Shown here: one piece after another, positions 2-10,677 of the stretch
Position numbering within the stretch: position 1 is the first letter of the stretch
Layout: every line of letters starts with the position of its first letter
Origin: Nitratireductor sp.
Lineage (GTDB): Bacteria > Pseudomonadota > Alphaproteobacteria > Rhizobiales > Rhizobiaceae
Assembly: GCA_017854535.1 (NCBI GenBank)
Contig: JAFMHL010000003.1
Location: forward strand, 50,018-114,017
Direction of reading: 5' to 3'
DNA: 64,000 bases
The notes under the pieces: model-generated
What the model saw: the letters and a program-made list of their open reading frames with translations, nothing else
Databases searched by the model: none
What the model was told of the DNA's origin: nothing
Position numbers and translations under genes: made by a program

Positions 2-799
2 GCTCTTGCAATCTTCTTTGCGCTTCGCGGTCGTATCCGTGTTGAGCACGGTATGTCTGGCAAAAAGATAAAGCGCTTTTCTGACGTTGAAAGAATGGGC
101 CATTGGTTGATGGCTATTTCGTTCATCATTTTGGCTATCAGTGGATTGAATGTGACTTTTGGTAAATATGTGTTGATGCCTGTGATCGGCAAAGATGCGT
201 TTGGTCCGCTTTCTCTGTTCCTAAAAACTACGCACCATTATATCGCATTTGCTTTCATGCTCGGCTTGGCCATCGCATTTGTTTGCTGGGTCATCCACAA
301 TATCCCAAGTCGCCATGATATTGGTTGGCTATTAAAAGGTGGCGGCTTGTTCTCAAAGGGCGTTCATCCACCAGCCAAAAAATTCAATGCGGGTCAAAAA
401 ATGATCTTTTGGTTGACCATGATAGGTGGCCTTTCGCTTTGCTTGTCTGGGTGGCAATTGCTGTTCCCGTTCGAGTATAACTATTTTGCTGATACGTTCA
501 CCATGCTCGCAAAAATCGGCATCGATATCCCCGCTATGATCGGTATTGCTGCGCCTCCTTATTCGGGAATCCAAGAGCAACAATTTGCAACCATTTGGCA
601 TGTGATCATGGCGGTTGTAATGATCTGCGTAATCATGGCTCACATTTATATAGGCTCTGTTGGCATGGAAGGCGCATTTGATGCCATGGGTTCTGGCGAA
701 GTAGATGAAAACTGGGCTATCGAGCACCATTCTCTGTGGGTCGATGAAGTTAAAAATGCCAAAGGCGCGAACGCACCAAAGACTCAGCCAGCTGAATAA
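2..799 (+). CDS. formate dehydrogenase gamma subunit (cytochrome b556), 5'-truncated by window edge
   Basis: This is the membrane cytochrome b subunit of a respiratory-type formate dehydrogenase, which passes electrons from the Fe-S subunit to quinone. The ORF track starts at the ATG at 53, but the same frame is open to the window edge and encodes ALAIFFALRGRIRVEHG just before it. That is the hydrophobic segment and RGRIR...G loop normally found before the conserved RF..ER..HWL motif, so the true start is very likely outside the window. Hydrophobic helices follow, with candidate haem-ligand histidines in ERMGHWL, THHYIAF and the late HVIMAVV...MAHIYIG helix. The C-terminus is hydrophilic (cytoplasmic tail). 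The partner alpha and beta subunits would lie upstream. The family call is strong; only the N-terminus is missing. Confidence 0.9.
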   Translation, partial: ALAIFFALRGRIRVEHGMSGKKIKRFSDVERMGHWLMAISFIILAISGLNVTFGKYVLMPVIGKDAFGPLSLFLKTTHHYIAFAFMLGLAIAFVCWVIHNIPSRHDIGWLLKGGGLFSKGVHPPAKKFNAGQKMIFWLTMIGGLSLCLSGWQLLFPFEYNYFADTFTMLAKIGIDIPAMIGIAAPPYSGIQEQQFATIWHVIMAVVMICVIMAHIYIGSVGMEGAFDAMGSGEVDENWAIEHHSLWVDEVKNAKGANAPKTQPAE

Positions 800-896: not shown

Positions 897-2255
897 TTGT
901 TTGCTCTTTCGCTCGGATTTGCTTTCTCGGCGAACGCTCAGTCATCGCAACTGCCTGACAAACTTGTTGGTCACGGCGGACCGGTAAAATCGGTCCAACT
1001 TGATTCAGCTGGTACGCGGGCTTTAACGTCTTCCTTTGATTATTCGATCATGCTTTGGGATCTGGAAGATACCCCGGCCAAGGTTCTTCATAGAATGATT
1101 GGGCATAACGCTGCGGTCAACGATATAGCGTTTGTTCAAAGCGGTGCAGTCGACGCCAAAGAAGATATAGCCGTCTCTGTGTCGGATGATGGGGCATTCG
1201 GAATTTGGGATATTGCCTCTGGCAAGATGATCTCCATGATTAAGGATGGCGAAGAAAAGATGCTTGATGTGGCGGTATCAAGCGATGGATCTCTTGCTGC
1301 TAGTGCAAAATGGGATGGAACAGCAAGGGTTTATGACTTGCAATCGCGTACTGAAATATTCCGTTTGGAAGGTCATAAAGGCCCGGTCAATGCTGTTACA
1401 TTTTCGCCTAATTCCAGCGTTGTTTTTTCCGGTTCTTATGATGGAGACATCCGTTTTTGGAGGCTGAAAGAGCCGAATTCGCCAGATCAATATTCTATGA
1501 TGCAACATGGTTCAGTGCTCTATTCTAACGGGTGGGGTATCAATGTTTTGCAAGTAATGCCTGATGGCAATGGCATTTTGTTCGGAACCGTAAATGGCTT
1601 GGTTGGTATTCTCGATTTAGCATCCCGTGATGTAAAGCAACTTGGCTCATATGAGCATCCTATTCTTTCCATTGCGATCAGTGAAGAAGCAGGCTGGATT
1701 GCTGCTGGCAGTGGAGATGGGTATATAAGGGTCTATGATCTTAATTCACTTGATTTGATAGAGCAGCGGCAGGATGCCTATGGTCCCGTATGGGGAATGG
1801 CTTTTTCTGCTGATGGGCGTCAAATTCTTAAAGCAGGATTGGATGATTTTGTTGGGCAATGGCAGGTTTCACCGCGTAAACCCATTGAACTTTCACAAAG
1901 CGAGTTTCCCCGCCGCTTCCAAGTAAACAATGGCGATGATCCAGGTGAAACAGAATTCAAACGCAAATGTTCGGTTTGTCATACCCTCTTGCCCGACGAC
2001 AAGAATAGGGCAGGGCCTACCTTGTACAAATTGTTTGGGCGCAAAGCAGGAACAGTGCCTGGCTATGTATATTCCAAAGCCTTGCTGAATTCTGATATCA
2101 TCTGGACAGAAGAAAGCGTTGGCCGCTTGTTTGACGAGGGGCCCGACATTGTGACACCAGGCACCAAAATGCCAATTCAGCGATTGAAAAGCGTGGAGCG
2201 GCGCAATGATTTGATTGCATATTTGAAGCGGGCCACTTTGGGCGGTGTAGAATGA
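897..2255 (+). CDS. periplasmic WD40 beta-propeller fused to a C-terminal cytochrome c domain
   Basis: The N-terminal two-thirds contains WD40-type repeats: repeated GH...V..V and SxDxxxxxWD/RVYD-like units between roughly residues 25 and 320. The last ~100 residues are a class I c-type cytochrome with one haem motif (CSVCH near residue 357), an AGPTLYKLFGRKAGT motif and a distal methionine in GTKMP. The protein is therefore expected to be exported and to carry haem. The start is uncertain. The track uses TTG at 897 without a good ribosome binding site. The frame is open back to 843, and CACGGAG at 857-863 precedes CTG 870/ATT 876, which would give a better signal peptide (...VPKFVILFALSLGFAFSANA). 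Its place directly after the formate dehydrogenase membrane subunit suggests an electron-transfer or assembly role, which is inference. Confidence 0.75.
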   Translation: MFALSLGFAFSANAQSSQLPDKLVGHGGPVKSVQLDSAGTRALTSSFDYSIMLWDLEDTPAKVLHRMIGHNAAVNDIAFVQSGAVDAKEDIAVSVSDDGAFGIWDIASGKMISMIKDGEEKMLDVAVSSDGSLAASAKWDGTARVYDLQSRTEIFRLEGHKGPVNAVTFSPNSSVVFSGSYDGDIRFWRLKEPNSPDQYSMMQHGSVLYSNGWGINVLQVMPDGNGILFGTVNGLVGILDLASRDVKQLGSYEHPILSIAISEEAGWIAAGSGDGYIRVYDLNSLDLIEQRQDAYGPVWGMAFSADGRQILKAGLDDFVGQWQVSPRKPIELSQSEFPRRFQVNNGDDPGETEFKRKCSVCHTLLPDDKNRAGPTLYKLFGRKAGTVPGYVYSKALLNSDIIWTEESVGRLFDEGPDIVTPGTKMPIQRLKSVERRNDLIAYLKRATLGGVE

Positions 2256-2350
2256 GGGTTTTATAATTTTGCTGCTTGCAAATAGGTGCGCAAAATTGTG
2301 AAATGAAATTTAGAACAATAGGTGGATTTTAATCGGCCTAATAGGATTGG

Positions 2351-2485
2351 ATGAAGAGTATGAGAGCCTTTTTGATGGCAATGGTTTTAATGTTGGTAGT
2401 CGCTTTGGGAACTGGTTTCCTATTGGACGGCGTGCTTGGCGAAAGCTCGAGCCAAGCGTTCACTTCTCCTTCAGCGCGCCTCTGA
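2351..2485 (+). CDS. 44-residue single-membrane-span/secreted small protein, unknown function
   Basis: This gene is too short for the ORF track. It starts ATG AAG AGT ATG AGA and encodes a hydrophobic segment (MRAFLMAMVLMLVVALG...) followed by a short polar tail ending SPSARL. It resembles a class of short alphaproteobacterial proteins with one N-terminal helix and a tail ending in S-x-R-L, which I recognise only by general appearance. It overlaps the upstream extension of the next ORF (track start 2436), one reason to trim that gene. No clear function can be offered. Confidence 0.5.
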   Translation: MKSMRAFLMAMVLMLVVALGTGFLLDGVLGESSSQAFTSPSARL

Positions 2486-2519
2486 TTTGCTACTAACTGG
2501 TAACTTTGCCTTGGGTAAA

Positions 2520-3485
2520 ATGCTATTCAGCACGCTTGCTCTGTTCGCTTGTGCTGGTTTCGCGCTAATCGGCAACGTCGAAGCCCAAACTACAACGGAA
2601 AATTGGCGTGAAGCGCTCATCGAAGATAAGATCGCTTCGATTGTATCTGTGCTTCCACAGGTAGGCGGCAATCGGGTCAATGCCAATGAACCCGAAGGAA
2701 CGGGCGTTGCGATTGATGGCTATATTCTCACTGCCGATCATGTTCTTGGGAATGCGAATAGAATTTTGATCAGGGCAGCAAATGGGGATGTGAGCGAGGC
2801 AAATATTTATCTTCGAGACAAGGCTACTGATTTAGCGCTGTTAAAACCGTCGGCAAAATTCAACTCTCTTTCCATTGCTTCAGAAAATTCGCGCATCGGG
2901 ATCGGGCATGATGTTTGCGTAATTGGCAATGCATTTGGCCTCGGTCTTACACTTTCTTGCGGTGTGGTTTCCGCCAATGAGCAACGTGGGATTGGATTTA
3001 ATTTTGTTGAAGACTTCATCCAAATTGATGCTGCTGTAAATCCAGGCATGTCCGGCGCACCCTTGTTTAATGACAAAGCAGAAATGGTTGGTTTGGTAAC
3101 AGCGATTTTCACCAAACAATCAGATGGTAACTTAGGTGTGAACTTCGCTGCATCCAGCAATCTGATTTCAGCATTTTTAAGCGATGCAAAAGACGGGAAA
3201 CTTGATCGCGCGAAGGCAGGCATAGTTATGCAGAAAGCGCCACTGCCTGGAGAGACTGGCCGCGCTGGAGGCTTGATCAAAGCTGTCGCAAGTAACAGCA
3301 TTGAGGAACAATCAGGGCTCTTAATGGGGGATCTCGTTTTGTCTGCAAATGCCATTAAGGTTAGGGGTCAAGCCGACTATCTTGCCGCTTTGGTTTTGGC
3401 TGGTGAAGATGGTCAAATTCGTTTGCAGATTTCGAGAGAAGGTCTAGAACAAACTATCGAATACAAGGTTAAGAAAACGGACTGA
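2520..3485 (+). CDS. secreted trypsin-like (S1C/DegP-type) serine protease with PDZ domain
   Basis: The catalytic triad of an S1C protease is visible: His in TADHVLG, Asp in DKATDLALLKP, and Ser in NPGMSGAPLF (the family's usual GNSGGP, here GMSGAP). The C-terminal ~90 residues form a PDZ-like domain (GLIKAVASNSIEEQSGLLMGDLVLSANA...). The track start at TTG 2436 overlaps the small upstream gene. ATG 2520 gives a proper signal peptide (MLFSTLALFACAGFALIGNVEAQ) and a 321-residue protein; TTG 2511 (MGKML...) is an alternative. It would act in the periplasm on unknown substrates. It lies inside the formate dehydrogenase accessory cluster, so a role in quality control of exported subunits is possible but unproven. 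Confidence 0.75.
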   Translation: MLFSTLALFACAGFALIGNVEAQTTTENWREALIEDKIASIVSVLPQVGGNRVNANEPEGTGVAIDGYILTADHVLGNANRILIRAANGDVSEANIYLRDKATDLALLKPSAKFNSLSIASENSRIGIGHDVCVIGNAFGLGLTLSCGVVSANEQRGIGFNFVEDFIQIDAAVNPGMSGAPLFNDKAEMVGLVTAIFTKQSDGNLGVNFAASSNLISAFLSDAKDGKLDRAKAGIVMQKAPLPGETGRAGGLIKAVASNSIEEQSGLLMGDLVLSANAIKVRGQADYLAALVLAGEDGQIRLQISREGLEQTIEYKVKKTD

Positions 3486-3511
3486 AATTATGTCGATTTT
3501 TGGAGAAAATG

Positions 3512-3700
3512 ATGAGTGAAGAAAATTTCAACATGTCGCTACGCAAGTTTTTAAAACAGGTTGGCGTGACTTCCCAACGTGAGATTGAAGAGGCCGCCCG
3601 GGCTATGGGCTCAGCTGGTAAATTGAAAGTCAAAATGGTTTTGACTGCCGAGGGCACAGCGCTCAATCATGTTGTTGAAGGTGAAATTGATCTTCCTTAA
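3512..3700 (+). CDS. DUF6494 family protein
   Basis: This is a 62-residue soluble protein with the family's typical opening (MSEENFNMSLRKFLKQVGVTSQREIE) and ending in a short beta-rich stretch (VVEGEIDLP). GGAG at 3502-3505 sits six bases before ATG 3512, so that start is preferred over TTG 3500. It is a short charged protein without catalytic motifs. I recall the family as linked to formate dehydrogenase gene clusters; function unknown. It lies 26 bases after the protease and 21 bases before the ligase-like gene, so co-transcription is likely. Confidence 0.7.
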   Translation: MSEENFNMSLRKFLKQVGVTSQREIEEAARAMGSAGKLKVKMVLTAEGTALNHVVEGEIDLP

Positions 3701-3721
3701 CAGATAGTTGGAGCTAGAAGC

Positions 3722-4516
3722 TTGAGTAAACTTGTCGATCCAGAATTCCCTCCGTTGATAAACGGTATTGCTGCTGAAATGGATGAAGATCCAGTGCAGA
3801 TAGCATTTGCGCGCGCTAAGTCTGGTGAAGTGGGCGCTGGTGATTTGATCTGGTCTCGCAATGAGAATAGTGTGAGTTTGGCAATTGTACTCGAGCCGGA
3901 AGTTACAGCTGAGCATGCCCTTACCATGTTGCCGCTTGCCATGGTTGCGCTTGCTGATTCTATTGGTGCAATTGGCCCGCCAAATCTTCCCATTACGTTT
4001 GACTGGCCGAAGACAATTTTGGCAAATGGCGCTGTTGTTGGTGGGCTTGATATGGTGTTTCCAGAGAACACCAAAGGTAGTGAGATACCTGCATTTGCCG
4101 TTCTTTCTCTGGGACTGGATATTACCTGGGCTGCGCATCAGTCGACAGGAACGCATCGTACTGAATTTGAACCGGGCGAAAACATGCTTCGAACCGTATT
4201 GCATGAAGAGGGTGCGGGAGATTTGGATAGAACAATGATTATCGAATCTTGGGCAAGGCATTTCACAGCTTGGATAGATACCTGGGAGCAAGACGGGTTT
4301 AAACCTGTTCACGAAAATTGGTTGTTTCGTGCAGACAAACGGAATGAAACGGTCGTGGTGAAAACGGCAAACGGGAATGAGGCCGGTACCTTGATCGGTA
4401 TGGACGAAATGGGCGGACTACTTGTGAAGCAGGATACTATAACGCGTCTCATTTCTCTGGGAGAAATCTGGTTTGGCGTAGAAGGCACAAGTGCTGACAA
4501 AGCGGTGCTTCAATGA
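3722..4516 (+). CDS. biotin/lipoate A/B protein ligase family protein, atypical active site
   Basis: The 264-residue protein matches the biotin/lipoate ligase fold family that appears in formate dehydrogenase accessory clusters. A TTG start at 3722 is supported by GGAG at 3710. The central strand-turn-strand (FDWPKTILANGAVVGGLDMVF) aligns with the BirA/LplA region KWPND...GRKLAGIL, but the lysine that contacts the adenylate is replaced by valine in GAVVGG and the N-D pair by K-T. It may therefore be a non-ligase homologue or use another residue. The C-terminal part (~190-260) looks like a small beta domain (GNEAGTLIGMDEMGGLLVK), similar to the BPL C-terminal SH3-like domain. The stop overlaps the next start by four bases (ATGA), implying translational coupling. 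Confidence 0.7.
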   Translation: MSKLVDPEFPPLINGIAAEMDEDPVQIAFARAKSGEVGAGDLIWSRNENSVSLAIVLEPEVTAEHALTMLPLAMVALADSIGAIGPPNLPITFDWPKTILANGAVVGGLDMVFPENTKGSEIPAFAVLSLGLDITWAAHQSTGTHRTEFEPGENMLRTVLHEEGAGDLDRTMIIESWARHFTAWIDTWEQDGFKPVHENWLFRADKRNETVVVKTANGNEAGTLIGMDEMGGLLVKQDTITRLISLGEIWFGVEGTSADKAVLQ

Positions 4517-5556
4517 GCACGACCTCAGAAATCTCCAAACCTCGAATGATATGGAAGTCTTCAGGACTTCATTTAACGCGCAAACAGAAAAATGGTTGGC
4601 TTGAAGTTACGCCTGATTTGTTGCGGGCTTACTATACCAGACCGGAAATTCATCCAGTTGATGAATCCTGCGATCAAGAGCATTTGCTTTTTGAACGATT
4701 GATGGAAGATCCGTCAGCGCTCGTTGGGCCTGAGGAAATTGATAAAATTGCAGATGAAGATGCGGCGGAAAATTATCGAATTATTCTTCGCTTTCGTGAT
4801 CATCTTGTCAAAATGCAAACCGTAGAACAGGCCTATATGGCCTTGTTCACGATGGAAAATCCGCCGCTAGTGCCGCCTGTATTCATAGAGCAAATGGTGC
4901 ATCTTATTATTTCGGGAATGCTTTCTAATTCATTTGATCCTTTTGTGGTTCGCGCTGCTGAGATCTTTTTTAGAGATCAGAAAGTCACCAACGAGGACGG
5001 GCAAATCATGTTTGCTGACAGTGAGGTCGTGGAAGTTTATTCTGAAACGGGCGGCATGGGAGGTTTGGGTGGACTGCTTGCAGAAGCTGGAACTCAAATG
5101 CGCGAAGTCTCACTGGATGTGCTGACGGAAGAAAACAAACAGACTTATTGGGATAGAGCTGATCAGTTCAATTTTGCGCTTGATTTCAGATATACCCAGC
5201 CTGGCCCTGACGCATTTGGACGGATGCTTGAAAAATGGATCAGGCATATGCTTGGTATCGATAGTAAGATAACGTCTGTGCAATCGGTCAATGACCAAAA
5301 ATGGAGTTGGCATGTTGGTCTGGATCTTCAATCTACCAAGATTTTGAATGATTTGTATGAAGGAAAAGCTGATCCTGTTTCTTCGTCAAATCAAATTGCC
5401 GGACTGTTTCGGATGGAATTTGTGAATAGAACCGATCTGACGGATGCTATGCGTGGTAAGGCTGTTTATTTGGGACTTGCCATGTCACCAGAAAAACTTA
5501 TCTCTATGAAACCACAAAATCTCTTGGTAAATCTACCACTTAGAAAAAAGAACTAA
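4513..5556 (+). CDS. DUF6352 family protein
   Basis: This 347-residue cytoplasmic protein without signal peptide or membrane span shows the family's pattern: SGLHLTRK...LEVTPDLLRAYYTRPEIHPVDESC near the start, a mid-region with VPPVFIEQMVHLII and a following DPFVVRAAEIFFR block. It starts within the stop of the ligase-like gene (ATGA overlap), so the two are likely made together. I know no biochemical function. Family members recur in formate dehydrogenase loci, so a maturation or regulatory role is an inference from context. Confidence 0.65.
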   Translation: MSTTSEISKPRMIWKSSGLHLTRKQKNGWLEVTPDLLRAYYTRPEIHPVDESCDQEHLLFERLMEDPSALVGPEEIDKIADEDAAENYRIILRFRDHLVKMQTVEQAYMALFTMENPPLVPPVFIEQMVHLIISGMLSNSFDPFVVRAAEIFFRDQKVTNEDGQIMFADSEVVEVYSETGGMGGLGGLLAEAGTQMREVSLDVLTEENKQTYWDRADQFNFALDFRYTQPGPDAFGRMLEKWIRHMLGIDSKITSVQSVNDQKWSWHVGLDLQSTKILNDLYEGKADPVSSSNQIAGLFRMEFVNRTDLTDAMRGKAVYLGLAMSPEKLISMKPQNLLVNLPLRKKN

Positions 5557-5576
5557 CCAGAACAGGAACGAAAAAC

Positions 5577-5900
5577 ATGCCCGCACAAAATTCGTATTTT
5601 TTGAATGGAACACTTGCCCGTGTACTCTTTGCTGTTTTGGCAGTTATTCTAGCCATTTTTGCATGGTTTCAATATCAGCAGATTGGTGATTTGAAAGCGG
5701 ATAAAAATATGGTTCTCAACGCATCGGAAGTAGCTGCAATGGGAAGCAACCCTGCAGTTGCAAGTTGTGCTGAGACCCGATTTGCGCAGATTGATCAACG
5801 TGTGGCGGATGGATTTCTCGATGCTGAGTTAGTTGCTGCAGAGAGAGAACATGCCATGAGCCTATGTATCGTTCGAGTGCGCGAAAGCGGCCCAAACTAA
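5577..5900 (+). CDS. small single-span membrane protein, unknown function
   Basis: This is a 107-residue protein with one N-terminal hydrophobic helix (ARVLFAVLAVILAIFAWFQY, residues ~14-33) and a short soluble domain with two cysteines (ASCAETR and MSLCIVR) about 40 residues apart, which could form a disulfide if the domain is periplasmic. AGGAACG precedes the ATG. It is the last plus-strand gene before a convergent gene and follows DUF6352 by 20 bases, so it probably ends the same operon. I do not recognise a family. Confidence 0.6.
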   Translation: MPAQNSYFLNGTLARVLFAVLAVILAIFAWFQYQQIGDLKADKNMVLNASEVAAMGSNPAVASCAETRFAQIDQRVADGFLDAELVAAEREHAMSLCIVRVRESGPN

Positions 5901-5932
5901 TTCAGCGTAGTCTCATAAGATCTGACAAATTG

Positions 5933-5967
5933 GATGGTTAAGCGCCGTAGCTAAGGGTTTAACCATC
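5933..5967. terminator. 9-bp inverted repeat between convergent genes
   Basis: GATGGTTAA (5933-5941) and TTAACCATC (5959-5967) are perfect inverted repeats with a 17-nt loop. The right arm covers the stop codon of the minus-strand ferredoxin gene. There is no long T-run on either side, so this is a possible bidirectional hairpin rather than a clear intrinsic terminator. Confidence 0.35.
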
Positions 5968-8025
5968 GTCTTTCGCCAAAAAGTCGTCGATGCTTAAGCC
6001 TTCGCGTTCGGCAACCAGATAATCGTCAGTTGTGCGTGGAACAGGGCGATTTGCTATTGCAAACGGGTCCCCGCCATCGGCCGCGAGCGTTTCCATCTTG
6101 CAGGTGTCGCACATTTTCAAAAGTTCAGACTGGGCTTTGTTGGCAAACATTCTGTGGCTGCCAGCTAGCTGAGCGCTAATGCGTTCAATGGTAGAGCGCG
6201 ACGCAAATGGCGTTTCGCATTTGATGCACTTAAATGGCTCCTCTTCATAAAGCGTTACTGGTTGCATTGCGTTTGGCGCAAGATTAAAGCGCGGGCTTAT
6301 GCTGATCGCATTTTCAGGGCAGGTAGCTTCACAAATGCCACATTGCACACAAGCTGTTTCAACAAACCGCAATTGCAGCGTATCAGGATTATCTCTTAAA
6401 GCGTCTGCGGGGCATGACGATACACATGCCAGACAAAGCGTGCATGCTTCTGTATTTACATTAACCGCACCATAAGGTGCGTCCGCCGGCAGAGGTATTT
6501 CTTTTAATTTCGTTTTTGCAGCGGTTGCAAGAATAGTAATCGCGTTGCGGGCAACTTCACGTTTATTTCCCAAAGGAACAAAGGATTTTGCTGTGATTTG
6601 TTTTTCAGGTGACAAGGACCAAAGCTTTGTTTCAACCAGATCAGGATCCGTCTCAACAAATAGCTGAAGGCGATCTTTTCCAAAGCCAAGCACATTGGTG
6701 AATGAAGCCGTAAGCTCTATCTCTTTTTTTAACGCATCAAACTCTTCGAGCTTGGAAGGATCAGCGAGAATTACGATTTTCGTAAAACCGCAGCCTAAAG
6801 CAGCGATCATTGCATCATGGCCTATCCCCGAAGTGCTGTGCATTTCATAAGGAATAACATTATGCGGCAAACCTTTTCCAAAGCGCGCCATTGCATTGAT
6901 CAAATCCATTCCATGTTTGGTGTCATGGCAAAGGAGAACTGCGTTTTTTCCACCTGCTTTGTGGTATGTTTCTGACAGCAGATGCAGTCCCCGAATGGTG
7001 TCATGGCGTTCCGGGTAGGAATAGGTCACTGCGCCAGTTGGACAATGGGCGGAGCAATTTCCACAACCTCCACAAATATCGTTGTCTACTTTAACGATAT
7101 CGCCATTGGAGGTGATTGCGCCTGCAGGGCAGTTGTCGATACATTTTGAGCAACCGGTTTTTTTAGAACGGGAATGAGCACAAATTTCAGAGTCGTAAGT
7201 GACATAGATTGGCTTTTCGAATTCCCCTACCATTTCGCCAGCATCAATGATGGCTCGCATTACCGCAGCTGGATCTTTTGGATCGGCTCTGAAATAGCCA
7301 TCACGTCCTTGGTGGCGGGTGAACAGAGGCGAGCCGCCAGTTAAATCAAGCATCACGCTACATCTTGATTTTGCCCCGTCGCGTAACATTGCAAAATCGG
7401 GCGATGACTTGGAGGAAGGGAGCATGGATGCATATTGATCAACGATAACGTCAAATGCGCCGAGTGTGCCGCTGGCCGAATTCATCTTGCCGCTGAAAAC
7501 AGGAAATTCAAGCTTATGAGGCAAAAGGATATCATCTGTTGAGGTCAATAATAGGGTTACTGATAGGCGCTTATTTAAAAGGAGCGCCGCATCAAATGTC
7601 GAATGACCTTTGCCTATAACCAGGCATAAGCCGTCACTGATGATGCTTTTTGCACGGGCAGGCTTTTGTTCCAGATTTGCAAGAGCAACAAGGGCGGCAG
7701 CTTTAGGGGATGCCTTCTTTGCATCGCTGCTCCAACCGGCTTTTTCCCTGATGTTAAAATAAACGGGTTCAGGACGGTTATTTTCTGCGGCGATTTCAGA
7801 AAACAGAGCGGATTCTTGTGTGCAACCTATGCATAATTGGGTGTCTGGGTTTTCGGAGAGTGCTTTTTCGAACCTGCCAATTCCTGAACGACACAAGTGG
7901 GTGTGAACTTCGACATCCTTTAGATCTTCACCTTGTGAAGAAAACGCATTGGCTAAAACCGATGGGGTTAATTGCATTGTGTTTTCACAATTACAAATCA
8001 GTGTGGATCTCTTTTTTCCGCTCAT
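5959..8025 (-). CDS. poly-[4Fe-4S] ferredoxin-domain protein of the formate dehydrogenase locus
   Basis: This large (688 residues from the chosen start) cytoplasmic iron-sulfur protein carries two bacterial ferredoxin-type pairs. One is mid-protein (CSKCIDNCP and CGGCGNCSAHCP, around residues 300-340 of the track ORF). The other is near 545-580 (CTLCLACVSSCP and CVQCGICEATCP). Extra cysteine pairs are CNC near the N-terminus, CIKCETP (~616) and CDTCKME (~655). The track start at 8067 is replaced by ATG 8025, which has GAGG five bases upstream and begins MSGKKRSTLICNC. It is divergent from the DUF3305 gene across 91 bases, so a shared promoter region is likely. Similar proteins accompany formate dehydrogenases; electron transfer or Fe-S/molybdenum-cofactor maturation is inferred. 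Confidence 0.8.
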   Translation of the reverse strand: MSGKKRSTLICNCENTMQLTPSVLANAFSSQGEDLKDVEVHTHLCRSGIGRFEKALSENPDTQLCIGCTQESALFSEIAAENNRPEPVYFNIREKAGWSSDAKKASPKAAALVALANLEQKPARAKSIISDGLCLVIGKGHSTFDAALLLNKRLSVTLLLTSTDDILLPHKLEFPVFSGKMNSASGTLGAFDVIVDQYASMLPSSKSSPDFAMLRDGAKSRCSVMLDLTGGSPLFTRHQGRDGYFRADPKDPAAVMRAIIDAGEMVGEFEKPIYVTYDSEICAHSRSKKTGCSKCIDNCPAGAITSNGDIVKVDNDICGGCGNCSAHCPTGAVTYSYPERHDTIRGLHLLSETYHKAGGKNAVLLCHDTKHGMDLINAMARFGKGLPHNVIPYEMHSTSGIGHDAMIAALGCGFTKIVILADPSKLEEFDALKKEIELTASFTNVLGFGKDRLQLFVETDPDLVETKLWSLSPEKQITAKSFVPLGNKREVARNAITILATAAKTKLKEIPLPADAPYGAVNVNTEACTLCLACVSSCPADALRDNPDTLQLRFVETACVQCGICEATCPENAISISPRFNLAPNAMQPVTLYEEEPFKCIKCETPFASRSTIERISAQLAGSHRMFANKAQSELLKMCDTCKMETLAADGGDPFAIANRPVPRTTDDYLVAEREGLSIDDFLAKDDG

Positions 8026-8116
8026 TAGGCCCTCGTTTATCGGCAGGTGAATGGACAAATTGACCATTGCATTCTGGCTACCAAACAGTAACTTGTAATA
8101 TGAAGCAAGGGTAAAA

Positions 8117-8680
8117 TTGAAATGGTGGTCCGTGTCTAGAGAGTTGCGAATTCACGTGGGCGTTATTGCCGAAAAACGAAAATCATCTTCCCAATGGGCG
8201 GAGGACTACTGGATTCCGACGGCCGTTTTAGAAAGTCATGTAAATCACCACGAAGGCGACGTATTATATGAAACGGATACGGTAAAACGCTATTTCATGG
8301 GTTATAGTGAAATCTACTGCCATGCCAAAGAGACCGAGGCTTATATTCATAATTTTGAAAGCCGTGTTCCAGCTATCTATGTCATTTTGCGGCGGGATGA
8401 CGAGAACAAATATCCGCTGAATTGGTATGTTCATGCAGTGACTGTTTCGCCTTATGAAGCACAGGATTACTCTGATTCTTCAGAAGACATTGTTGAGCGT
8501 GTGGCCATGCCTGTTGGGATAGCAAAGATAGTAATGGATTTTATTGATCTTCATCATGTGGAAGAAGAATTCAAAAAACGTAAGCGCAAAGACTTTAAGA
8601 GTGAGCCACGTCAGTTCGGAAAAGATCCCATTTTCCTTGAACGCAGTCGACCAAACAAGAATGGCGGATTTGATGCCTGA
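8117..8680 (+). CDS. DUF3305 domain-containing protein
   Basis: This 187-residue protein shows the DUF3305 pattern: an opening beta strand and W-rich turn (SRELRIHVGVIAEKRKSSSQWAEDYWIPTAVL), then YFMGYSEIYCHAKETEAY and PAIYVILRRD. AAGGG precedes TTG 8117 by five bases, supporting this start. The C-terminus is basic and disordered-looking. In the family it is paired with DUF3306 and a poly-ferredoxin in formate dehydrogenase clusters, and that pairing is exactly preserved here. The stop at 8680 overlaps the start of DUF3306. Function unknown; an assembly role is inference. Confidence 0.75.
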   Translation: MKWWSVSRELRIHVGVIAEKRKSSSQWAEDYWIPTAVLESHVNHHEGDVLYETDTVKRYFMGYSEIYCHAKETEAYIHNFESRVPAIYVILRRDDENKYPLNWYVHAVTVSPYEAQDYSDSSEDIVERVAMPVGIAKIVMDFIDLHHVEEEFKKRKRKDFKSEPRQFGKDPIFLERSRPNKNGGFDA

Positions 8681-9377
8681 AAAAGAAATTGAAGATGGTT
8701 TCTTAAGCCGATGGTCTCGTCGCAAACGTCATGGCGAGATTGTTGAAGAGGGTGAAGCTGATTCACCCGAAACTTTAGATGTCCACCCCGAGCAAATAGT
8801 ATCAAGTGGTGATTCTGAAGATGTTGATGGAAATCTAGTTGCTGAACCGACGGAAGAAGAATTGGAAATGCAAGCCAATCTTGAGGCCGCTGAGGCGATA
8901 AATCTGGAAACGTTGGAATATGAATCCGATTTTGCATTGTTCATGAAAAAAGGGGTTCCGGACGCTCTCAAAAACGCTGCGATGCAGAAGCTGTGGCGCA
9001 GCAATCCTATGCTTGCTGTCCTTGATGGCTTAAATGATTATGATGAGGATTTTGGCGATCCAAAGCTTAATGTTTATAAATCTGCTTGGGAAGTTGGACG
9101 CGGATTTTTAACCGATACGGAAATGAACCACAGCCCAGCTGATAAAGTTCAGGCATTTGTGGAGAAGCTGCTGGAAGAACCACCGCAAGATGGCGCTGAG
9201 GAAAAGGTTGAGGAACAATCAGAGATTGATAATGATGAAGAATCGGCAGTAGTTGATGAAGACATTGTGGAAGCCGAACATAGTGAGTTGGACGGTGATG
9301 ACAATGATGAAGATCAACCTGTTCAACGGGTGTCGATGAGAAGTCGTATCTTTGACTACTCTGAGGATACAAATTGA
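8661..9377 (+). CDS. DUF3306 domain-containing protein
   Basis: The recognisable part begins MADLMPEKEIEDGFLSRWSRRKRHGE, and the core continues to a LWRSNPMLAVLDGLNDYDEDFGDP motif, both typical of DUF3306. The track start at 8544 lies deep inside DUF3305 and gives unrelated sequence, so ATG 8661 was chosen; ATG 8673, with GGCGGA upstream, is an alternative. The region after residue ~175 is extremely acidic and repetitive in E/D, probably disordered. It overlaps the DUF3305 gene by 20 bases, suggesting coupled translation. Function unknown. Confidence 0.75.
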   Translation: MADLMPEKEIEDGFLSRWSRRKRHGEIVEEGEADSPETLDVHPEQIVSSGDSEDVDGNLVAEPTEEELEMQANLEAAEAINLETLEYESDFALFMKKGVPDALKNAAMQKLWRSNPMLAVLDGLNDYDEDFGDPKLNVYKSAWEVGRGFLTDTEMNHSPADKVQAFVEKLLEEPPQDGAEEKVEEQSEIDNDEESAVVDEDIVEAEHSELDGDDNDEDQPVQRVSMRSRIFDYSEDTN

Positions 9378-9498: not shown

Positions 9499-10677
9499 AT
9501 GACAGCGCCGACAAAAGAAATAGTTTTAAGCGAACTGAAAAAAGTTAAGGGGCCTGATCTAAAGAGCAATATTGTTGATTTGGGGCTTGTGTCCGAGATC
9601 TTTATCTCAGACGGCAAAGTGATCTTTTCGCTAGCGGTTCCCGCAGAGCGAGCAAGCGAGCTTGAACCACTTCGCGCTGCAGCAGAAAAAGTGGTGACGC
9701 AGATTGAAGGCGTAAAAAGCGCGATGGTTGCGCTTACTGCAGAGAGAAAAGGTGGCAAGGATCAAGCTGCTCGTCCTGCTTCTAGCGCCGGGCAGGCCGG
9801 AAGTGCACCTCCCCCAATGGCTGGTGGAGATTTTGTTCCAGGTAGACCGCAACAGGCGCCAACCCCGGATAAGGCTGGGGTGCCTGGGATCAAATCGATT
9901 ATTGCAGTTGCCTCAGGAAAAGGTGGCGTTGGCAAATCGACAACATCAGTGAACCTTGCTTTAGCCTTGCAAGCAAATGGTCTGAAAGTTGGCATTATGG
10001 ATGCTGATATTTACGGACCTTCTATGCCGCGTTTGCTCGGTATTTCCGGACGCCCCCAACAAGTTTCTGGACGCATAATCAAGCCGATGGAAGGCTTTGG
10101 ACTTAAAGTTATGTCCATGGGCTTTTTGGTGGATGAAGAAACGCCTATGATCTGGCGCGGTCCAATGGTTATTTCGGCGCTAACTCAAATGCTGAGAGAA
10201 GTGCAATGGGGCGAGTTAGATGTTTTGGTGGTTGATATGCCTCCTGGAACAGGTGATGCGCAACTGACCATGGCCCAGCAAGTTCCTTTAGCAGGGGCGG
10301 TCATCGTTTCAACACCGCAAGACCTTGCTTTGATTGATGCCCGAAAGGGGCTTAATATGTTCCGGCGCGTTGATGTGCCGTTGTTGGGGATCATCGAAAA
10401 TATGAGCTATTTCATCTGCCCAGATTGCGGCAGCCAGCACAATATTTTTGGTAATGGTGGCGCTATGAATGAAGCTGAACGCATTGGTGTGCCATATCTT
10501 GGGGCCGTACCGTTGCATATGGATATTCGTGAGAATTCTGATGCAGGTACACCTGTTGTGGTTTCGGCGCCTGATGGTCCTCATGCCAAGATTTATCGAG
10601 GTATAGCAGATAAAGTTCTTGAGCGGTTGAACGCTGAAAAAGAAATGCAAGGTGGCCCAGCGATCGTCTTTGACTAG
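9499..10677 (+). CDS. mrp: Mrp/NBP35-type Fe-S cluster carrier ATPase (ApbC family)
   Basis: The 392-residue protein combines an N-terminal MIP18/DUF59 domain (residues ~1-85) with a deviant-Walker P-loop ATPase. The signature ASGKGGVGKSTTSVN is at ~135-150, MDADIYGPSMPRLLG follows, DMPPGTGDAQLT is a downstream ATPase motif, and the cluster-binding CPDCG is near residue 307. A proline/glutamine-rich linker joins the domains. Mrp/ApbC proteins bind and transfer Fe-S clusters in the cytoplasm. Its place next to a multi-Fe-S formate dehydrogenase accessory set fits that role, though mrp is also a general housekeeping gene. A 121-base gap separates it from DUF3306, so it may have its own promoter. 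Confidence 0.92.
   Translation: MTAPTKEIVLSELKKVKGPDLKSNIVDLGLVSEIFISDGKVIFSLAVPAERASELEPLRAAAEKVVTQIEGVKSAMVALTAERKGGKDQAARPASSAGQAGSAPPPMAGGDFVPGRPQQAPTPDKAGVPGIKSIIAVASGKGGVGKSTTSVNLALALQANGLKVGIMDADIYGPSMPRLLGISGRPQQVSGRIIKPMEGFGLKVMSMGFLVDEETPMIWRGPMVISALTQMLREVQWGELDVLVVDMPPGTGDAQLTMAQQVPLAGAVIVSTPQDLALIDARKGLNMFRRVDVPLLGIIENMSYFICPDCGSQHNIFGNGGAMNEAERIGVPYLGAVPLHMDIRENSDAGTPVVVSAPDGPHAKIYRGIADKVLERLNAEKEMQGGPAIVFD

Follow-up and report, generated by a model that had tools for sequence, protein, structure and literature searches.

FdsC/FdsD and FdhD are maturation factors of formate dehydrogenases. Genes for DUF3305, DUF3306, a fer4 protein, and an fdh-tat protein have been reported beside fdhGHI and the gene for a TorD/DmsD (NarJ-family) chaperone (Bay et al. 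2015, PMC4464133). SoFdhAB of Shewanella oneidensis, whose structure is 9VAP, is an oxygen-tolerant tungsten enzyme with a cysteine ligand (Cys-W) (PMC13397495). A related locus is found in Nitratireductor sp., in a stretch of 64,000 nucleotides (the window; G000:C98:50018-114017) of a genome of 3.53 Mb. The formate dehydrogenase genes are followed there by genes for a WD40-cytochrome c fusion, an S1C protease, a biotin/lipoate ligase-like protein, a poly-ferredoxin, DUF3305, DUF3306, DUF6352, DUF6494, and two small membrane proteins. It is probable, with some reserve, that these are accessory genes of a periplasmic FDH3 (FdhABC) exported by the twin-arginine translocation (Tat) system and carrying a cysteine-ligated tungsten or molybdenum (W/Mo) bis-molybdopterin guanine dinucleotide (bis-MGD) cofactor. 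They would constitute a cytosolic kit for cofactor loading and assembly, and a periplasmic and membrane set for electron transfer and quality control.

An FDH3-type enzyme and its companion families

Upstream of the window (L002:8877-14799) lie the genes for a NarJ/TorD-type chaperone and a Tat-target protein of 64 residues (above the TIGR02811 cut-off), then fdhA, fdhB, and the start of the gamma subunit gene. FdhB (198 residues) scores 350 bits with the NCBIfam equivalog NF038355 (FDH3_beta), whose cut-off is 240, and 144 of 189 residues (76%) are identical to 9VAP chain B. Among all PDB sequences, the best match of FdhA (976 residues) is 9VAP chain A, which aligns at full length with 1414 bits, and the next best scores 310. 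Based on the equivalog match and the best matches to 9VAP, the enzyme is of the FDH3 type and related to the tungsten enzyme. FdhA contains the twin-arginine motif RRSFL. It also has a cysteine, within ARICHST, in place of the Sec ligand, at a position assigned by analogy with FdnG and not from structural superposition. Proteins with a Tat signal work in the periplasm. The active site of FdhA is thus predicted to be periplasmic.

The distribution of the accessory families was compared with that of FDH3 in 249 genomes of the phylum (the phylum draw) and in 124 genomes taken evenly from the class, nearly one per family (the class draw). In the phylum draw, FDH3-beta and DUF3305 occur in an identical set of 41 genomes. 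All 18 genomes with DUF6352 and all 22 genomes with strong homologues of the ligase-like protein (PF16917, E below 1e-40) are inside this set. In the class draw, FDH3-beta is present in 20 genomes, DUF3305 in the same 20 and in G107 (20/21), and DUF6352 in 17 of the 20 and in G006 (17/18). DUF3305 and DUF6352 are restricted to FDH3 genomes, with these two class-draw exceptions, one for each family. Hypergeometric p-values for DUF3305, DUF6352, and PF16917, which ignore shared ancestry, range from 6e-48 to 2e-16. Shared ancestry alone is unlikely to be the cause, because the 18 class-draw carriers of DUF6352 span 18 families, and because FDH3 is present in one of the 14 phylum-draw genomes from the family of the window, the same one that has DUF3305 and DUF6352. 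Among 72,556 plasmids, FDH3-beta is present on 96 and DUF3305 on 88, with nearly equal counts per genus. Many plasmids of Sulfitobacter and Pseudosulfitobacter carry FDH3-beta, and DUF3305 was observed in nearly the same genera.

An earlier note on this DNA had linked the genes to a molybdenum/tungsten formate dehydrogenase and proposed strict co-occurrence of their families with fdh. The link is strongly supported by the distribution of DUF3305 and DUF6352, and the enzyme can now be assigned to FDH3. Strict co-occurrence was seen in the phylum draw for DUF3305 (41/41) and DUF6352 (18/18), but not for DUF6494. DUF6494 is present in 16 genomes of the phylum draw, 14 with FDH3 and two without, and in 22 genomes of the class draw, 15 with FDH3 and seven without. 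It is therefore not specific to FDH3, and may have a broader role with respiratory Fe-S enzymes. In four loci (L087, L088, L090, and L092), DUF6494 adjoins succinate dehydrogenase genes, whose identity was supported by Pfam for L087 and L092. Strand was checked in one locus, L087, where DUF6494 is on the strand opposite to the succinate dehydrogenase genes.

In several FDH3 genomes, DUF6352 is not linked to fdh: G023, G139, G287, G305, and G348 in the phylum draw, and G041, G089, G109, and G116 in the class draw. The co-occurrence is therefore more than neighbourhood. This bears on the explanation that the accessory genes are passengers without a role in activity, carried along with fdh through linkage and horizontal transfer. 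The genes form a compact module, in many cases on large plasmids, and the occurrence of FDH3 in a single sampled genome of the window's family suggests transfer. Against these points, DUF6352 persists where it is unlinked, gene content persists though gene order shifts, and cysteines are invariant across 42 to 48 homologues of two of the proteins. Passenger genes are thus a very improbable explanation.

Gene content, order, and neighbourhood

Gene calls were checked with Pfam and NCBIfam profile scans of the proteins of the window and its flank (Table 1). All genes listed in the earlier note after the cytochrome b gene are present at the positions given there, and all but the small membrane protein have profile support; its inventory missed one open reading frame (ORF), that of a 44-residue protein. 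The cytochrome b subunit has 407 residues at full length, and its gene begins 424 bases before the first letter of the window (L002:13576).

Table 1. Genes of the formate dehydrogenase locus, with positions in the window.
Gene product	Position	Strand	Support
FdhG/FdhC (formate dehydrogenase gamma, cytochrome b membrane subunit), C-terminal part	2..799	+	TIGR01583, 147 bits (cut-off 115.85)
WD40 beta-propeller and C-terminal monohaem cytochrome c fusion, exported	897..2255	+	Pfam WD40, 5e-37
44-residue single-helix membrane protein, no annotation	2351..2485	+	Conserved homologues, C-terminal VRL/ARL
S1C (HtrA/Deg-like) secreted serine protease, one PDZ domain	2436..3485	+	TIGR02037, 164 bits, below cut-off
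DUF6494, small cytosolic protein	3500..3700	+	PF20104, 5.5e-28
Biotin/lipoate ligase-like protein (probable pseudo-ligase)	3722..4516	+	PF16917, 3.6e-57
DUF6352, cytosolic	4513..5556	+	PF19879, 6e-73; 246.3 bits (gathering score 25)
Small single-helix membrane protein, two invariant cysteines	5577..5900	+	No family matched
Poly-ferredoxin, cytosolic	5959..8067	-	Fer4 matches
DUF3305	8117..8680	+	PF11749, 1.1e-32; 113.6 bits (gathering score 25)
DUF3306, strongly acidic, cytosolic	8661..9377	+	PF11748, 1.5e-23
Mrp/ApbC iron-sulphur carrier ATPase	9499..10677	+	NF008669, 366 bits (cut-off 348)

Overlaps and short gaps had been taken as a sign of coordinated expression. The overlaps are real: the ligase-like gene and DUF6352 share four bases, and DUF3306 most likely starts at the ATG at 8661, a start chosen from the region FLSRWSRRK, which gives an overlap of 20 bases with DUF3305. 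The poly-ferredoxin gene, however, is divergent from DUF3305, so the locus is not a single transcript. Most related loci in which both genes were seen show the same divergence. Scans for promoters and terminators showed no excess over shuffled sequence, and a scan for repeats found nothing.

The neighbourhood was examined in 84 loci with DUF6352 from named genomes and plasmids, including those of Aurantimonas, Stappia, Roseibium, Azospirillum, Ferrovibrio, Sinorhizobium, Bradyrhizobium, and Microvirga. As contigs end within the neighbourhoods, all counts are lower bounds. The most frequent companion is the ligase-like gene (at least 62 loci), followed by DUF3306 (at least 49), FdhA (at least 47), DUF3305 and DUF6494 (at least 46 each), DUF6505 (at least 45), and the WD40-cytochrome (at least 44). 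The small membrane protein with two cysteines is present in at least 36 loci, S1C in at least 23, a TupB-type protein in at least 21, FdhD in at least 14, MobA in at least 13, and Mrp in at least 11. The Mrp/ApbC gene downstream of DUF3306 in the window therefore represents an occasional member of the module. Gene order varies between loci, while gene content is kept. The window locus is without DUF6505, and its ligase-like gene overlaps DUF6352 directly.

A Sinorhizobium meliloti plasmid carries the whole set. It includes a tungstate transporter, a regulator, DUF6494, the WD40-cytochrome, a 4Fe-4S protein, the ligase-like protein, DUF6505, DUF6352, DUF3305, DUF3306, TorD, the Tat protein, FDH3, a MoeA-like protein, MobA, and FdhD. 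TupA of this plasmid scores 239 bits against NF041772, below the model cut-off of 400. Genes for TupABC, FdhD, MobA, and MoeA-like proteins adjoin many other copies of the module.

Such neighbours could indicate that DUF6352, the ligase-like protein, and DUF6505 serve general tungstate/molybdate or pterin homeostasis instead of FDH3 assembly; the three adjoin TupABC and its periplasmic-binding-protein (PBP)-type helix-turn-helix regulator in several loci. Many of the 208 phylum-draw genomes without FDH3 should carry other molybdoenzymes. Neither DUF6352 nor a strong PF16917 homologue was found in any of these 208, which makes a general homeostatic role decidedly unlikely.

Some DUF6352 genes are isolated. 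No constant neighbour was found around them, and the surrounding families were not identified by profile. In seven such loci (L160, L162, L175, L176, L180, L074, and L075), without formate dehydrogenase genes nearby, a common downstream gene was observed that by eye resembles a vitamin B12-dependent ribonucleotide reductase. In the fragmented genome of G006, DUF6352 is on a 10 kb contig (L073) with pieces of the WD40-cytochrome gene and a TupA-like PBP_like_2 protein. As the contig carries these genes, the absence of fdh may reflect a gap in the assembly.

Accessory proteins and their possible roles

The closest structure to the ligase-like protein is 3BFM, a protein of unknown function with the biotin protein ligase fold, matched at full length (3.8e-29). 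At the position of the catalytic lysine of BirA (Lys183, in the KLAGIL-type motif), the protein has valine, and lysine is present in two of 64 homologues. Because the catalytic lysine is not conserved, the protein is unlikely to be an active ligase and is better regarded as a putative pseudo-ligase. DUF6352 and DUF3305 were modelled with AlphaFold2 at high confidence (pLDDT 91.8 and 89.3); rows from plasmid records were left out of the two input alignments. Foldseek comparison with the PDB gave no fold match for either model (best E of 1.0 for DUF6352 and 0.19 for DUF3305, TM-score about 0.2 or less for both), and profile searches of the two family alignments against PDB sequences gave no matches. 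DUF3305 corresponds to the C-terminal part of a MobA-fusion model, NF011058 (69.9 bits). Besides four 4Fe-4S motifs, the poly-ferredoxin contains nine other cysteines (25, 27, 59, 82, 296, 614, 617, 653, and 656), all invariant in 48 of 48 homologues.

A simple scan detected no signal peptide or transmembrane segment in DUF3305, DUF3306, DUF6352, the ligase-like protein, or the poly-ferredoxin; the ligase-like protein has one marginal hydrophobic stretch. Without signal peptides, these proteins are predicted to be cytosolic and would be out of reach of electrons from a periplasmic enzyme, which makes maturation the more likely role. Alternatively, the working enzyme could have an electron-transfer branch made up of the poly-ferredoxin, DUF3305/DUF3306, and DUF6352, one that bifurcates electrons to a cytosolic acceptor, for example. 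The cluster motifs and the further invariant cysteines of the poly-ferredoxin fit such a branch, and the protein weakly resembles ferredoxins of the HdrA and hydrogenlyase types, which also fits. However, the Tat signal of FdhA, the Tat-target protein, and the TorD-type chaperone all indicate an active site on the other side of the membrane from the accessory proteins, and DUF3305 is linked to MobA rather than to redox partners. The electron-transfer branch is thus unlikely, and cofactor loading and assembly are favoured because of the lack of signal peptides and the context of MobA, FdhD, and tungstate genes. The earlier note had left maturation and electron transfer side by side; the two can be divided by compartment, with maturation more likely for the cytosolic proteins and the exported WD40-cytochrome c as a candidate electron partner.

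The WD40-cytochrome has CxxCH at residue 358, and the motif is in the C-terminal 40% of the protein in 50 of 52 long homologues. Homologues carry a signal peptide. In the window, a full signal peptide would result from CTG at 870 or from ATT at 876, but from no standard start codon. The true start is probably a non-standard codon near 870-876. The S1C protease retains the motifs of the His-Asp-Ser triad (DHVL, TDLAL, and GMSG), with matches to Trypsin_2 (7e-21) and PDZ_2 (4.3e-5, under the gathering score). The small membrane protein downstream of DUF6352 has one hydrophobic helix, and its cysteines 64 and 97 are kept in 42 of 42 homologues.

The 44-residue protein of the window has no match in Pfam or NCBIfam. 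Members of its family have about 42 residues and a single hydrophobic helix, and carry VRL at the C-terminus, with an invariant arginine. In FDH3 module loci 56 such ORFs were found, directly downstream of the WD40-cytochrome gene in 39 loci. In 391 of 394 pairs, fewer amino-acid than silent changes are seen per site (pN<pS), and the small ORF is thus under selection. It occurs also in loci without the S1C gene. In the simplest reading, the membrane part of the enzyme would include it as a small subunit.

The TorD family guards signal peptides. In the favoured reading, TorD would protect the signal peptide of FdhA in the cytosol, and DUF3305 and DUF3306 would join MobA and FdhD in loading W/Mo-bis-MGD into apo-FdhA. 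The poly-ferredoxin, at times with Mrp, might provide electrons or clusters for assembly. The pseudo-ligase and DUF6352, often with DUF6505, could serve as a scaffold without catalytic activity, by which the core is extended chiefly in Alphaproteobacteria. FdhA-FdhB would then be exported and dock onto the cytochrome b subunit. The WD40-cytochrome c may be the periplasmic electron partner, and the S1C protease may act in quality control; the 44-residue protein would join the membrane part as a small subunit.

The biochemical roles and the assignment of steps to single proteins are inferred. Several observations weigh against this reading. DUF6352 is missing from 23 of the 41 FDH3 genomes of the phylum draw, so it is not generally required. 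Neither the DUF6352 model nor the DUF3305 model has a solved counterpart, and structure therefore gives no function. The metal of the enzyme would be tungsten or molybdenum, and no TupABC was found in the window and its flank, the sole region searched. G107 retains DUF3305, DUF3306, FdhD, and the poly-ferredoxin without FDH3-beta. These core genes may serve another role, or may be a relic or the result of an assembly gap. In G107 (L085, G107:C3), the orphan genes, in the order DUF3306-DUF3305-FdhD, adjoin imuA and dnaE2; with these neighbours, a location beside an Fds-type formate dehydrogenase was ruled out.

A bolder proposal is that DUF3305/DUF3306/poly-ferredoxin and pseudo-ligase/DUF6352 (with or without DUF6505) form an unrecognised machine for the selection and insertion of W/Mo bis-MGD in oxygen-tolerant FDH3, with two folds without a solved match, and that the 44-residue protein is an overlooked subunit. 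This is conceivable but rather doubtful.

Comparison with described systems

Oxygen-tolerant metal-dependent formate dehydrogenases are sought for CO2 reduction. The strictly co-occurring set represents a short list to co-express or delete, and among its members are two families without known fold, a seemingly dead ligase, and a micro-protein that lacks annotation. For a different tungsten formate dehydrogenase, Me-FDH1, a reported bottleneck is the maturation of its catalytic subunit in foreign hosts (PMC13396061).

The earlier note called the locus an undescribed system. This does not apply to its core, as TorD, the Tat protein, DUF3305, DUF3306, and the 4Fe-4S protein were already reported with fdhGHI in 2015; DUF6352, the pseudo-ligase, and the 44-residue protein do appear undescribed. 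In the Shewanella region SO4503-SO4509, SO4504 and SO4505 are presumably the DUF3306 and DUF3305 genes. Both were lowered in one regulator mutant, together with SO4506 and fdhA SO4509, and no gene-level function was given (PMC2535785). A literature search, with most subscription journals outside its scope, found no paper for DUF6352 or DUF6494, and the sole relevant paper for DUF3305/DUF3306 was PMC4464133. Within the literature searched, the one-to-one co-occurrence of DUF3305 and FDH3, the restriction of DUF6352 and the pseudo-ligase to FDH3 genomes even where unlinked, the missing ligase lysine, the two models with no counterpart among solved folds, and the small ORF are new.

In comparison with FdsC/FdsD and FdhD, the proposed role in cofactor loading of FdhA is the same, and FdhD itself neighbours many copies of the module, but DUF3305, DUF3306, and DUF6352 match none of their models in the Pfam and NCBIfam scans. 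The ligase-like protein shares the biotin ligase fold of 3BFM but not the conserved lysine of BirA. The catalytic part agrees with fdh3ABC of Methylobacterium (NF038355) and with SoFdhAB in the matches of FdhA and FdhB. The Alphaproteobacterial locus adds DUF6352, the pseudo-ligase, the WD40-cytochrome c, and the small membrane proteins to them. The operons of Bay et al. have the identical core genes adjoining fdh, but that survey was centred on the neighbourhoods of NarJ-family chaperones and not on the one-to-one co-occurrence with FDH3 seen here.

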